From contig NZ_CP028923.1 of NCBI RefSeq assembly GCF_005166025.1, positions 372,001 through 436,000 of the forward strand: a DNA stretch of 64,000 bases, given 5' to 3'. The notes under the pieces were generated by a model. That model saw only the letters and a list, made by a program, of their open reading frames with translations. It was not told where the DNA came from and ran no database searches. Position numbers and translations under genes: made by a program. Origin of the DNA: Mangrovivirga cuniculi (lineage in GTDB: Bacteria; Bacteroidota; Bacteroidia; Cytophagales; Cyclobacteriaceae). This document shows positions 45,801 through 50,845 of the stretch, in pieces (the stretch's first letter is position 1; each line of letters begins with the position of its first letter).

Positions 45801-45862
45801 TCTTTTTTTCTTAATTTAATCAATTATAAAGATTCGTAATTTGATGTCGGTCAGGAGATTAT

Positions 45863-45876
45863 ATGACCTATATCAT
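45863..45876. promoter_or_regulatory. FNR-like palindrome upstream of two divergent stress-protein genes
   Basis: ATGAC-CTAT-ATCAT, half-sites 4 bp apart as in FNR-type boxes (TTGAT-N4-ATCAA). Its centre is about 63 bp before the rightward ATG at 45933. The same element with a perfect outer 5-bp match occurs at 49212-49225, also about 64 bp before a rightward ATG. The likely binder is the CRP/FNR-type module of the regulator at 50857-51906. Confidence 0.55.
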
Positions 45877-45932: not shown

Positions 45933-46799
45933 ATGGCCGGAATCATGCACACCCATTCTGCTTCTAAACCTTTAAAATCGATTGCAAACACCCAAAGTGC
46001 AATCAATAAAATACTCGTAGCAACCGAGGCGTGCTCTACTTGTGTTCCGATATTAAATTATGGTGCAGGCCTGGCTGATACGCTCGGTGCTGAACTGGTG
46101 ATTTTACATATTGTTAAAACTGATCCAAGCAAAGGTGATTATATAAATGACTATAAAATTAACAAAGGGCGTCAAAACCTTATTCAGGCCCTTAACAGAA
46201 TGAATATTAAACCGGATAATGTCATTCTTTTAGTGCGTACCGGAGATCCTGAAGATATCATAAACAAGACAATCCTGACTCACAATGTTAGTCTTTGTGT
46301 AATGGGAAAGTCAAAAAGTCGAAGTGACAAAGAAAGAGTGGGTAAACTGACCAGTAAAATTGTAGATAACCCTCCTTGCCCGCTAACTATTATAAATCCT
46401 CAACACCGAACCAAGCTTCCTAAAAAAGTTCTAATTACATGGGGCAACTACGACCTGGACATTCTGGAACACCAAAAAAATTTCTTTGATAGCTTTATGA
46501 AAAAACTTCAGGCAGATGATATTCTTTTTCATGTAACTCATGATTATGAGTCTTTTCATCCTGATGAAGTTGAAGAAGCTTTTAAAGGTATATTACATCA
46601 TAAAGTTAATTTAGAAACATCTCATAGTGATAATGCCTACCTGGCAATCAAGAATAAGCTTTCTTCCGAGGATTTTGACATGGTTGTTTTATTCCATAAA
46701 GTGAATAAAACGACTGATGATAAATTTAAAGGTAGTATTAGTAAAAAATTATCCTTTTCCGCCAACACTGCAGTAATGATAATCCCTGTATTTAATTAA
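45933..46799 (+). CDS. Universal stress protein, tandem Usp domains
   Basis: A 288-residue protein from the ATG at 45933; an upstream TTG is also open. Domain 1 (about 20-150) has KILVATEACSTCVPILNYGAGLA and MGKSKSRSDKERVGKLTSKIVDNPPCPLTII, an ATP-motif-like segment without the classic glycines. Domain 2 (about 160-288) is more divergent and ends in SKKLSFSANTAVMIIPVF. Both domains look less able to bind ATP than the two leftward stress proteins near 47430-49140. It is divergent from the 44916 gene and 68 bp upstream of the TetR gene. Confidence 0.78.
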   Translation: MAGIMHTHSASKPLKSIANTQSAINKILVATEACSTCVPILNYGAGLADTLGAELVILHIVKTDPSKGDYINDYKINKGRQNLIQALNRMNIKPDNVILLVRTGDPEDIINKTILTHNVSLCVMGKSKSRSDKERVGKLTSKIVDNPPCPLTIINPQHRTKLPKKVLITWGNYDLDILEHQKNFFDSFMKKLQADDILFHVTHDYESFHPDEVEEAFKGILHHKVNLETSHSDNAYLAIKNKLSSEDFDMVVLFHKVNKTTDDKFKGSISKKLSFSANTAVMIIPVFN

Positions 46800-46867: not shown

Positions 46868-47437
46868 ATGGAAACTGCAACCCGAGAAAAAGACTTCAAA
46901 ATTCAAAAAAGAAAAAGAATCTTATTTTCTGCTTTGGAGCTATTTGCCACTCAAGGTTACGATGGCACTTCGGTAAGTCAGATCGCCAAAGCTGCCGGAA
47001 TATCCAAAGGCCTTACCTATGTCTATTTTGAAAGCAAAGAAGATTTATTGCTTCAAATAATAAATTATTTTAAAGCTGAAGAAGAAATACGGCTTGCTTC
47101 ATTATATGACGATGATCCGAATATTTTTTTAAAAAGGCTTATTCATGATTTTTTTAACAGGATTAGGGAACGTCCAGAACATATTAAGCTCGTCACTTCG
47201 TTGATGCTACAGGTGAGTAAATACAAGTTCATTCAGGAAATGGCTATTGATAAATATCTGACCTATTTTCAGCTAATGCAGGAACTACTGGATAAAGTTG
47301 GATTTCCGGATTCCCGAAGAGAAGCTAAATTATTAACGGCTATGCTGGATGGTGTGGCAATACAATTTAATGTAGTAGGAGAGGATTATCCATTAACTGA
47401 AACTGAAAAGTACATTTTAACAAAGTACGTCAGTTAA
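46868..47437 (+). CDS. TetR/AcrR-family transcriptional regulator
   Basis: A 189-residue repressor-type protein. The N-terminal helix-turn-helix runs about 18-63: ILFSALELFATQGYDGTSVSQIAKAAGISKG with the recognition helix near GISKGLTYVYFESKEDLL. The C-terminal helical domain (70-189) is the ligand-binding and dimerisation part; its inducer is unknown. It sits inside a cluster of stress proteins and overlaps the convergent 47430 gene by 8 bp. It carries its own operator, so it probably represses itself and perhaps neighbours. Confidence 0.88.
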   Translation: METATREKDFKIQKRKRILFSALELFATQGYDGTSVSQIAKAAGISKGLTYVYFESKEDLLLQIINYFKAEEEIRLASLYDDDPNIFLKRLIHDFFNRIRERPEHIKLVTSLMLQVSKYKFIQEMAIDKYLTYFQLMQELLDKVGFPDSRREAKLLTAMLDGVAIQFNVVGEDYPLTETEKYILTKYVS

Positions 47438-48275
47438 TAACAAGCATCGGAATACTCTTATTATTCACTAGGCTTTTTGAGACTGATTCTGAAAATAAGC
47501 CATTATAAAAGTGCTTTCCGGGAAAAACCACAATTAAATCTCCTTTGATTTCAAGAACTTTTTTTAATATCGTTTTAGAGATGAATTCATTACTCTTTTG
47601 AGGAACCAGACAAGTCTGAATATCAGGCAGGGTCATTCTAAGAGTCTTCATAACTTTTTCCTTTTCATCACTAAACTTTTGTTTAAGAGACTCTTGTGTA
47701 ACTGATAGCAAAACCTGGTTTGATGATAAAACACTTAATAATTGAGCTGAATTGATCAGATCTTTTTTCTTATTCTTTTTGCTATAATCACAGCTAATGC
47801 ATGCGTTTTTAAAAGGAAAATGACCTTCAAATTGTTCAGGTACAATAATTGAAGGGCATCCAATACTATTTAATATTCTAACAATATTAATTTTAAGGAA
47901 AGACATAAATCCAGAAGGGTTTTTCTTTCCCAGAACAATCAGGTCAACTTTCTCTTGCTCGACAAAGGCTGACAAACGTGTTTCAAGATAACCGAGCTTA
48001 AACTTCAATTCATAGGCAATACCACTGTTAGAAAGATATTCCTCCTCGAGCTTTTTGAATTTTTTTGCAATACTAGATGAAAATACAGCCGGATCGTTTT
48101 CTTCCTCTACATATAAAGGAAGGCCACCAACCGGCTGAGGAATATTAAAAACATGAAGAACAGTCAGCTTCGCGTTGAGCTGCCGTGCAATATCAATTGC
48201 ATATTTAAGACCGGTATAACTGGCATTACTAAAATTTACCGGCACTAAAATGTGGCTGACTACTAGGTTACTCAT
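47430..48275 (-). CDS. Universal stress protein, tandem Usp domains
   Basis: A 281-residue protein. Domain 1 (about 1-145) has ILVPVNFSNASYTGLKYAIDIARQL and a motif VLGKKNPSGFMSFLKINIVRILNSIGCPSIIV (split) near 112-143 in which the usual GS before the helix is replaced. Domain 2 is degenerate, with FPGKHFYNGLFSESVSKSLVNNKSIPMLVI. It follows the frameshifted stress-protein gene by 20 bp and is probably in the same operon, driven from the region at 49141-49282. Confidence 0.8.
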   Translation of the reverse strand: MSNLVVSHILVPVNFSNASYTGLKYAIDIARQLNAKLTVLHVFNIPQPVGGLPLYVEEENDPAVFSSSIAKKFKKLEEEYLSNSGIAYELKFKLGYLETRLSAFVEQEKVDLIVLGKKNPSGFMSFLKINIVRILNSIGCPSIIVPEQFEGHFPFKNACISCDYSKKNKKKDLINSAQLLSVLSSNQVLLSVTQESLKQKFSDEKEKVMKTLRMTLPDIQTCLVPQKSNEFISKTILKKVLEIKGDLIVVFPGKHFYNGLFSESVSKSLVNNKSIPMLVIN

Positions 48276-48295
48276 TAAACTAATCCCGTCGATTA

Positions 48296-49140
48296 CTATT
48301 TAATATGACAAGTCCAAACTGGTTTATTAGTATGATTAACAAGGTCCTCCGCTATGCTTCCGGAAATTGTATGCATCAACCCTTTTCTTCCATGAGTTCC
48401 GATAGCAATAAGATCTATATCATTATCTTCCGCAAAAGCAGAGATGCCGGCATCTTCCTTATATGCATCATAAGTACTTACATTGACATTCACCAGGTGA
48501 TTCTTTTTAGCAAATTCTCTTAAATTATTCTCCGCCCCCGGGTTGGAATAAAATTGTAAGGGGTATTTACTCGCACCAGGTAAAGCTCTGCATCCATTAC
48601 TTCAAGCAACCTGTCAAAATGATTTAGCAAATTTTCTTGAGTCTCTGTATAATCAGTAGCAAAAGCGATTGATTTAATTTGCTCTAACCTGATTGGATCT
48701 TTAACAGTAATCACAGGATGCTTGGAGTATCTGACTACTCGTTCAGCATTTGAACCAATCATAACCTCATCCATACCGTGTGCACCTTTACTTCCCATAA
48801 TTACCAGGTCAGCATTTAGAGCTGCTATCTTTTTGGTAATGTTTTGGTATGGGTTACCTATTTTAACAATCGTTTCAACATCAAGGCCATCAAACATTTC
48901 TTTGGTTCGAAGTTCTTCAAATTGCTTTTCAACCTTTTCAATCATCTGAGCAGTAAACGCATTAGCAGGCATTCCGCTTTCCGGGGCAGGCCCCATAGTA
49001 GTAAAACTAGCAGTTGGATAATATTCTATAACATGTATAATTGATAACTTTGCACCTGTCTTTTTTGCGAAATCCACCGCAAGTTGAAGTGCGTATCCTG
49101 CTTCTTTCGAAAAGTCTGTGGGTACTAATATATTCTTCAT
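48296..49140 (-). pseudogene. Universal stress protein, frameshifted
   Basis: A tandem Usp gene in two frames. The first (49140 to 48520, 206 residues) has domain 1 with MGSKGAHGMDEVMIGSNAERV, a good ATP-binding pattern (about 115-134), and enters domain 2 before leaving the frame at NFIPTR (about residue 201). The second frame continues as AENNLREFAKKNHLVN and GTHGRKGLMHTISGSIAEDLV to 48296. Adding one G on the minus strand (C run at 48535-48539) gives a 281-residue protein, the same length as its neighbour. Either an error in the sequence or a real loss of the second domain. Confidence 0.85.
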
Positions 49141-49211
49141 GGCTTTCGTTGTTTTTTAACAAATAAGACATTTATTTATTGATACCACCTTGCATCTTGT
49201 CAGCAGGTCGT

Positions 49212-49225
49212 ATGATTAATATCAT
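49212..49225. promoter_or_regulatory. FNR-like palindrome between the stress-protein operon and the kinase-regulator operon
   Basis: ATGAT-TAAT-ATCAT with perfect 5-bp half-sites and N4 spacing. It lies about 64 bp before the kinase ATG at 49283 and about 78 bp before the leftward stress-protein ATG at 49140. It matches the element at 45863-45876 and would allow feedback by the regulator at 50857. Confidence 0.6.
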
Positions 49226-49282: not shown

Positions 49283-50845
49283 ATGGAAAATGAACAAAAA
49301 TTATTTCAATCTATATTTGAAAGTGCAGTTGAAGGGCTAATAATTTGTAACAGGGAAGGGGAAATAGAATTAGCCAATAAAAGAGCTGAAAGTCTTTTTG
49401 GTTATGATAAGGATGAACTCACTGGAAAAAAAATTGAATTATTGGTTCCTGATGATTTAAAGGCTATACATAGAGGTCACAGAAGAAAGTATTCACAAAA
49501 ACCCTCCAAAAGAATGATGGGGGCAAACCTGGAATTGTATGGTAAAAGAAAAGATGGCAGCGAGTTTCCTTTAGAAATATCTTTAAACCATACTACTGTC
49601 GAAGACAAAACATTGATAGTTGCCTTCATCATTGATATTACTTCCAGAAAAAAAATGGAAAAAGACCTGGAAAAAAACCGAAACAGGCTGGAAAAATATT
49701 CTGTTGAGCTAGAGCAAAGAGTAAAACAAAGAACATTAGAACTTGAAAAGTCCAATATCAACCTGATTGCCTCACAAAAGCTATTCAGAACAATTTCAAA
49801 AAACTTCCCAAACGGCACGATCAATGTAATCGATAAAAACTTTAATTACATTTTTGTAGAAGGGCGTGAACTTCAATCCCAGGGAATTAATAGTAAAGAT
49901 TTGATTGGGAAAAAATATGTTCATTATCAACCCGGTTCTGAATTAGAAGAAAAGTTAAAAAATGCACTGATCGGGCAAAACAGCACCCATGAAATTAGAA
50001 ATGGCGACGAATATTATATTATGTATATCGTCCCACTTTCTTCCGGACATGAAGGATTAATTGAGCGTATTCTGATTGTAGAGAAAAACATTACTCAACA
50101 GAAAAACGCTGAAGACAATATCCGTACATCACTGAAAAAGGAACGAGAGCTTAATGAACTGAAAAGCCGATTCGTTTCCATGGCCTCCCATGAGTTTCGA
50201 ACACCGTTGAGTACTATTCTGAGTTCTGCTTCCTTGCTGGATAAATATTTTGATCTGGGCAATAAAGAAAAGAAAGATAAACACATCACCAAAATTAAAT
50301 CATCGGTCAACAACCTGATTAATCTGCTCAATGACTTTCTTTCTCTTGACAAAATTGAAGAAGGTGTAATAACGCCAAGTTTCCATCAATTTAATCTTAA
50401 AAAATTAATTGAAGACATACTGGATGAACTACAAGAATCATTAAAACCGGGTCAGGAAATAAACTTTAAATATAAAATTGAAGAGCATGTTATATTAGAT
50501 AAACAGTTAGTAAAAAATATTTTTATAAATTTAATTTCTAATGCAGTTAAATACTCCCCGGTTGATAAACCGATTCTCGTTTCGGTTTATAAGGAAAATG
50601 GATTAATTATTTTTGAAATATCTGATCAGGGAATCGGAATCCCGGAGGAAGATATGAAACATTTATTTCAGCGTTTTTTTAGAGCACATAATGCCAGTAA
50701 TATTGAGGGAACCGGTCTTGGTTTAAATATTGTAAAAAAATATGTTGAAATGATGGGGGGTAATATTAGTTGCGTAAGTGAGGAAGGGTTTGGTACTACA
50801 TTTAAAATCTTTCTGGAAGAAAAAGTCGTTGAAAAATCTGAGTAA
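49283..50845 (+). CDS. Cytosolic PAS sensor histidine kinase
   Basis: A 520-residue soluble kinase. Residues 5-125 are a PAS domain (FQSIFESAVEGLIICNREGEIELANKRAESLFGY, split) with a PAC end DITSRKKMEKDLE; 125-160 is a coiled coil; 165-275 is a second PAS-like domain. HisKA has H303 in ASHEFRTPLS, the N-box is NIFINLISNAVKYSP (412-426), G1 is DQGIGI (448-453), and G2 is GTGLGLN (476-482). The PAS domain could sense redox, oxygen or a ligand; no haem histidine can be assigned with certainty. ATG at 49283 chosen over a TTG two codons upstream. The partner regulator follows after 11 bp. Confidence 0.9.
   Translation: MENEQKLFQSIFESAVEGLIICNREGEIELANKRAESLFGYDKDELTGKKIELLVPDDLKAIHRGHRRKYSQKPSKRMMGANLELYGKRKDGSEFPLEISLNHTTVEDKTLIVAFIIDITSRKKMEKDLEKNRNRLEKYSVELEQRVKQRTLELEKSNINLIASQKLFRTISKNFPNGTINVIDKNFNYIFVEGRELQSQGINSKDLIGKKYVHYQPGSELEEKLKNALIGQNSTHEIRNGDEYYIMYIVPLSSGHEGLIERILIVEKNITQQKNAEDNIRTSLKKERELNELKSRFVSMASHEFRTPLSTILSSASLLDKYFDLGNKEKKDKHITKIKSSVNNLINLLNDFLSLDKIEEGVITPSFHQFNLKKLIEDILDELQESLKPGQEINFKYKIEEHVILDKQLVKNIFINLISNAVKYSPVDKPILVSVYKENGLIIFEISDQGIGIPEEDMKHLFQRFFRAHNASNIEGTGLGLNIVKKYVEMMGGNISCVSEEGFGTTFKIFLEEKVVEKSE

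Follow-up and report, generated by a model that had tools for sequence, protein, structure and literature searches.

Paired CRP/FNR-type boxes beside universal stress protein genes of Mangrovivirga cuniculi: probable activator sites of a low-oxygen regulon

The FNR protein carries an oxygen-labile 4Fe-4S cluster held by four cysteines and recognizes the box TTGAT-N4-ATCAA. CRP/FNR activators such as E. coli CRP and FNR act from boxes centred at -41.5 (class II) or about -61.5 (class I) relative to the start site. FixL, a heme oxygen sensor, has a PAS domain with a proximal heme histidine and a distal arginine. The FixK/FnrN consensus is TTGANCNNGATCAANG (PMC4999443), and the HcpR2 box, including that of Bacteroides, is GTAAC-N4-GTTAC, with a regulon that in most Bacteroides consists of hcp only (PMC1274295). 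Promoters of Bacteroidota have a -7 element at -12 to -5 (PMC9723704). In the open-access literature searched, we found no description of a box code such as the following for aerobic Bacteroidota.

Two box sites in the window and their promoters

The window, a 64-kb stretch of a 4.66-Mb single-contig genome, encodes universal stress proteins (USPs), a PAS sensor histidine kinase and a response regulator with a CRP-type output, here termed REC-CRP (Table 1). Site 1 lies between the divergent genes USP1 and USP2, and site 2 between USP4 and the kinase gene, which is followed by the gene for REC-CRP. A TetR-type regulator is encoded amid the USP genes, downstream of USP2 (46868-47437). The USP4 region (48276-49140, minus strand) holds an ORF of 206 aa, compared with 281 aa in both congeners (L172 and L173), so that USP4 looks frameshifted, in this genome or in the assembly.

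Table 1. Coordinates of the boxes, candidate promoter elements and genes in the window; G001 and G002 are the two congeners.
Feature	Position	Strand	Remarks
USP1, universal stress protein, 294 aa	44916..45800	-	Pfam Usp 2.9e-15
USP1 -7 element candidate TAAATTAA	45811..45818	-	4/6, canonical +51
USP1 alternative -7 element TATAATTG	45821-45828		5/6, off-register; TAATTTTG in G001
Site 1 box B TTGATGTCGGTCAG	45841..45854	.	8/8 to NTGAY-N4-RTCAN; centre-to-centre distance to box A exactly 22 bp
Site 1 box A ATGACCTATATCAT	45863..45876	.	Perfect ATGAY-N4-RTCAT palindrome; conserved in G001 and G002
USP2 -7 element candidate TATATTAA	45900..45907	+	4/6, at +30, leader 21 nt; TAT[AC]TTAA in G001 and G002
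USP2, universal stress protein	45933..46799	+	Start taken at ATG 45933; Pfam Usp 3.2e-16
USP3, universal stress protein	47430..48275	-	Pfam Usp 1.1e-17
USP4, universal stress protein	48520..49140	-	Pfam Usp 3.3e-32; likely target of site 2
USP4 -7 element candidate CTTATTTG	49160..49167	-	TTTG exact, canonical +51 from box A; same in three species
Site 2 partner box CTGACAAGATGCAA (minus strand)	49190..49203	-	Degenerate, 6/8; 22 bp from box A
Site 2 box A ATGATTAATATCAT	49212..49225	.	Conserved in G001 and G002
PAS sensor histidine kinase, HisKA/HATPase	49283..50845	+	PAS alignable to the heme-binding PAS domains of FixL and DosP
REC-cNMP-HTH_Crp response regulator, 349 aa	50857..51906	+	Recognition helix STESVIRTL

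The initial annotation had described the two box A sites as sharing a pattern and as lying 63 and 64 bp ahead of the rightward start codons. Both exist as described, their centres being 63.5 and 64.5 bp from the ATGs of USP2 and the kinase gene, respectively. Within the 64 kb, ATGAYNNNNRTCAT matches only these two sites (0.58 matches expected from shuffles), as does TATGAYNNNNATCATT when perfect matches are required. At least two ATGAYNNNNRTCAT matches arose in 12 of 100 shuffles of the window, which makes the window alone a weak case.

The matched spacing to the rightward genes, which the annotation considered hard to explain by chance, is correct but uninformative, as site 2 shows. Toward the kinase gene, no -7 element in register was present in any of the three species compared, and a rightward kinase promoter was rejected on this ground. 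Toward USP4, a CTGAC half-box and CTTATTTG at +51 are kept in all three, and the 5' leader predicted from this element is 15 nt. Site 2 therefore most likely serves USP4. At site 1, the element facing USP2 is the weaker TAT[AC]TTAA at +30, conserved and one base off the canonical +29. Toward USP1 the element is ambiguous: TAAATTAA is uncertain because it would leave a leader of only ~6 nt, and the alternative TATAATTG is out of register. Site 1 most likely serves USP2, USP1 or both, as judged from these elements; at the canonical place, the USP promoters of the window reach only 4/6 of the -7 consensus.

Box A of both sites has been preserved in G001 and G002 despite divergence of the flanks; the regulator of these congeners is 99% and 88% identical to the window copy, respectively. 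In G002, the more distant congener, the site 1 tandem reads CTGATGATTATCAA and ATGACAGAAATCAT, with free positions in and between the boxes changed and specified positions kept. The site 1 partner box has one mismatch in G001.

Motif, tandem spacing and target genes

The motif was sought in 80 loci encoding relatives of the regulator, together with the window, by comparing all 1024 half-sites with an N4 spacer in intergenic and genic DNA. ATGAC-N4-GTCAT ranked first and ATGAT-N4-ATCAT second in intergenic DNA, and ATGAY-N4-RTCAT occurred 49 times in intergenic and 15 times in genic sequence (4.05 versus 0.12 per 10 kb). The outer base is A, with C or G as alternatives and T rare. In the same sample, the FNR motif TTGAY-N4-RTCAA was not enriched (2 intergenic, 11 genic) and enrichment disappeared with spacers of 3, 5 or 6; FNR or CRP motifs and other spacings were thus rejected as the box. 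Of the earlier label "FNR-like", what stands is a CRP/FNR-family palindrome before stress-protein genes; its sequence is ATGAY, not the TTGAT of FNR. At the regulator-relative loci, a perfect box is present in 17 of 43 USP promoters versus 53 of 799 others (p = 5e-9). REC-CRP genes have a perfect single box upstream in 3/29 cases, no higher a rate than elsewhere (p = 0.31), which led us to reject autoregulation as a general rule; composite sites (defined below) do precede several REC-CRP genes.

A second box (at least 6/8) lies exactly 22 bp away in 41 of 65 intergenic boxes, with 18 partners at +22 and 23 at -22, compared with about 1.1 at each other position. In 86 box-gene pairs searched for the Bacteroidota -7 element TAnnTTTG (5/6 or better), two start positions relative to the box centre stand out, +29 with 25 pairs and +51 with 16, other positions having 0.83 each. 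The partner box at exactly 22 bp accounts for these two registers, themselves 22 bp apart, and it occupies the -41.5 place in 13 of the 16 promoters with the +51 spacing. With the element at -12 to -5 (PMC9723704), the spacings place the boxes at about -41.5 and -63.5, which would correspond approximately to the class II and class I activator positions. The partner counts identify the regulatory unit as a tandem, mostly of one strong and one weak box.

A composite pattern of tandem plus -7 element, allowing up to two mismatches, gave 231 matches in 59 genomes of the order, whereas its reversed counterpart gave 2; the five genomes that lack HTH_Crp_2 proteins had no match. Sites of the M. cuniculi genome were judged on separate stretches, and their genes were named by visual inspection of the sequences. 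Only the site 1 pair (45842-45875) forms a zero-mismatch tandem in this genome; the site 2 pair matches with two mismatches. Five further pairs have one mismatch and precede ccoI, ccoNO (followed by ccoQPGHS), a CRP gene adjoining rhodanese and metallo-beta-lactamase-fold genes, a gene for a 148-aa protein (2790423-2790869) and an operon with ABC-transporter genes; the cco promoters have a -7 element. USP genes are preceded by sites with an odds ratio of 9. The expectation that hits would gather before stress and respiration genes was thus borne out, by the USP, ccoI and ccoNO genes here and by the USPs among relatives.

Among 114 proteins encoded downstream of composites, 28 were Usp, 17 D-2-hydroxyacid dehydrogenases, about 10 REC-CRP, 6 kinases, 3 Hsp20 and 2 COX1, a tally that includes near-identical species and shows what the sites precede rather than an unbiased regulon, because its loci were partly chosen for proximity to the regulator. 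OsmC and YceI families were also found, and PFOR, Dps, phosphoketolase and molybdopterin oxidoreductase were recognized by eye. As annotated, this gene make-up is what would be expected of an oxygen-limitation response.

Two further arrangements were observed. At many loci (L060, L072, L075, L084, L093, L104, L110, L112, L114, L116, L117, L119, L123 and L126), a lactate dehydrogenase-like (D-2-hydroxyacid) gene with a tandem composite promoter lies just downstream of the REC-CRP gene, which suggests fermentation as a further part of this regulon. In M. cuniculi, a tandem at G000:C1:2537873-2537937 (L163:7874-7938), with the proximal box GTGAT-N4-ATCAC and TAATTTTG exactly in place, precedes the gene for a 220-aa CRP protein (helix REVVSR), followed by the rhodanese and metallo-beta-lactamase-fold genes. 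Possibly, these form an autoregulated sulfur-stress unit.

Candidate regulator, sensor kinase and alternative readings

The window regulator contains PF00072 (6.4e-29), PF00027 (7.4e-19) and PF13545 (3.4e-14). Its cNMP_binding fold and HTH_Crp domain place it in the CRP/FNR superfamily, and its receiver, together with the kinase gene directly upstream, identifies it as a response regulator. Its translation has a single cysteine, located in the receiver (LILCDIM), in place of the four that hold the FNR cluster, and the window boxes are ATGAY, with only partner box B starting TTGAT. An FNR regulon was rejected for both box and Fe-S cluster, and an HcpR regulon because its box, GTAAC-N4-GTTAC, differs.

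Of 94 REC-CRP genes, 74 have a kinase gene no more than two genes away, and 62 have one directly upstream. PAS kinases beside REC-CRP genes fall into two subtypes, one nearly FixL-like; the window kinase belongs to the less FixL-like one. Its His63 aligns with the heme histidine of FixL and DosP, a position kept in 58 of 64 such kinases, whereas the distal arginine of FixL, present in many relatives, is absent here (GANL versus GIGR). Given the PAS alignment and the conserved histidine, a role as a heme oxygen sensor is plausible for the window kinase.

Whereas the box, spacings, target classes and conservation were computed, activation, the identity of the binding protein and its phosphorylation are inferred, as are the heme and the oxygen signal. 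Our main reading, to which we assign a probability of roughly 0.6, is that the boxes are CRP/FNR activator sites of a Bacteroidota low-oxygen regulon, likeliest read by the neighbouring, kinase-activated REC-CRP. A CRP/FNR-family dimer would bind NTGAY-N4-RTCAN, and a typical promoter would present two boxes on the same DNA face, with centres 22 bp or two helix turns apart: one at -41.5, in class II position relative to the sigma-A -7 element TAnnTTTG, and one at -63.5, in class I position. As a rule, one of the two is perfect and the other degenerate. Low oxygen, or a redox or gas cue related to it, would free the PAS kinase to phosphorylate the receiver and so activate the CRP module; the activated protein would then turn on the USP genes and the cbb3 oxidase. 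Kinase and regulator would represent the FixL-FixJ-FixK chain shortened to two proteins.

The initial annotation had named the adjacent regulator as the binder of both sites, and sequence features make this probable: its E..IR helix is suitable, although boxes also occur in genomes without REC-CRP and a second E..IR protein is encoded. Of the four HTH_Crp_2 proteins of the genome, two carry the E..IR helix, namely the window REC-CRP and a 206-aa protein of a nos cluster; the other two have RQTVTT and REVVSR. Across relatives, the box excess was not associated with REC-CRP presence (p = 0.26); the underlying genome-wide count of single boxes against the reversed pattern was set aside as too noisy, owing to matches in coding DNA. 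Tandem counts with and without REC-CRP differ over the order (median 6 versus 1, p = 1.5e-4) and are close within the family (6 versus 5.5, p = 0.12). As neither the box excess nor the family tandem counts follow REC-CRP, the box code is common to several CRP/FNR proteins of this group.

REC-CRP and standalone CRP/FNR proteins may accordingly compete for the same boxes, joining the two-component input with another signal such as NO or redox. This arrangement, which overlaps with the main reading, is a real possibility, well short of even odds. It fits the presence of several HTH_Crp_2 proteins in most genomes scanned, the near-perfect tandem before the 220-aa CRP gene at 2537935, where TAATTTTG is exactly in place, and the occurrence of the ATGAY box near REC-CRP genes of all helix classes (E..IR, E..SR and E..NR); two of the four helices in the genome itself are, however, unlike E..IR. 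A separate box for each recognition helix was rejected, since ATGAY occurs in all classes, with only side preferences. Beside ATGAY, GTGAY-N4-RTCAC is enriched with helix E..SR (L093-L126, mostly Mucilaginibacter; 13 intergenic, 2 genic), and CTGAY weakly with E..IR (10 intergenic, 9 genic), possibly reflecting a specificity shift at the outer base.

An unlikely reading keeps the boxes as genuine activator sites but assigns them, in this genome, to a different CRP/FNR protein, above all the 206-aa nos-cluster regulator (G000:C1:3854002-3854619), with REC-CRP regulating other genes or merely overlapping. By eye, the cluster (L155, G000:C1:3846311-3864298) is of the denitrification type and contains nosZ, nosL, nosD/F/Y, a cytochrome c and a Ric-like protein, as well as an NnrS-like protein, a vitamin B12-type ribonucleotide reductase, the 206-aa regulator and three single ATGAY boxes. 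The E..IR helix shared with REC-CRP, the perfect boxes around its own nos/RNR/NnrS cluster, and the boxes and tandems in genomes without REC-CRP all speak for this protein. Yet its three boxes are single, with a best 22-bp partner of 4/8, unlike the window and cco sites, which favours REC-CRP as the reader of the tandem sites here, and the window boxes flank the REC-CRP operon.

That the boxes are repressor operators is improbable: with the alternative USP1 element, TATAATTG (5/6) or its G001 form TAATTTTG, the partner box would cover the -33 region, but the dominant spacings are those of class II and class I activators with almost no signal elsewhere, and an operator needs no single fixed register. 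Chance likeness of two AT-rich palindromes, which the shuffles giving two matches in 12 of 100 cases might suggest, is refuted as the main explanation by intergenic enrichment, the 22-bp partner and the fixed -7 spacing across relatives, together with the USP promoters, composite counts and conservation.

Significance and comparison with described systems

The specificity of the composite (231 matches versus 2 for the control) makes low-oxygen regulons predictable in these genomes and supplies a condition under which many hypothetical genes and USPs can be tested. The system also offers a direct way to ask how a CRP/FNR protein contacts the unusual Bacteroidota sigma factor and promoter. Tentatively, and at slightly less than even odds, these features may amount to a Bacteroidota-specific anaerobic activation code, a one-step counterpart of the rhizobial oxygen cascade in which a fused FixJ-FixK-like protein, controlled by a FixL-like kinase, reads a 22-bp tandem phased to TAnnTTTG, with USPs as the core regulon.

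HcpR and HcpR2 of Bacteroides and Porphyromonas likewise belong to the CRP/FNR family in Bacteroidota, but their box differs and the HcpR family as described has no receiver domain (PMC1274295). DNR/NnrR systems resemble the 206-aa E..IR protein in its nos/NnrS/Ric cluster with single ATGAY boxes; that protein is not the window regulator and has no receiver, and its box differs from TTGAT-N4-ATCAA. With the boxes of FNR, FixK and FnrN, the box system described here shares the 14-bp two-fold geometry, the TGA...TCA core, the predicted class I/II positions and the cbb3 oxidase (ccoNOQP/GHIS) as the putative main respiratory target. It differs in the outer base A (C/G alternatives, rarely T), in the usual pairing of boxes 22 bp apart, in having the Bacteroidota -7 element as promoter partner, and in its most frequent targets in this sample, USPs and D-lactate dehydrogenase-like genes. 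The oxygen-responsive rhizobial FixL-FixJ-FixK system (also hFixL-FxkR-FixK) places a heme-type PAS kinase, a receiver and a CRP/FNR output before the cbb3 oxidase, an arrangement that the present system would share. Here, by contrast, the receiver and CRP/FNR module reside in one protein and the kinase and regulator genes are adjacent, so that the two-step oxygen cascade would become a single step, a natural case in which it appears fused into one protein.
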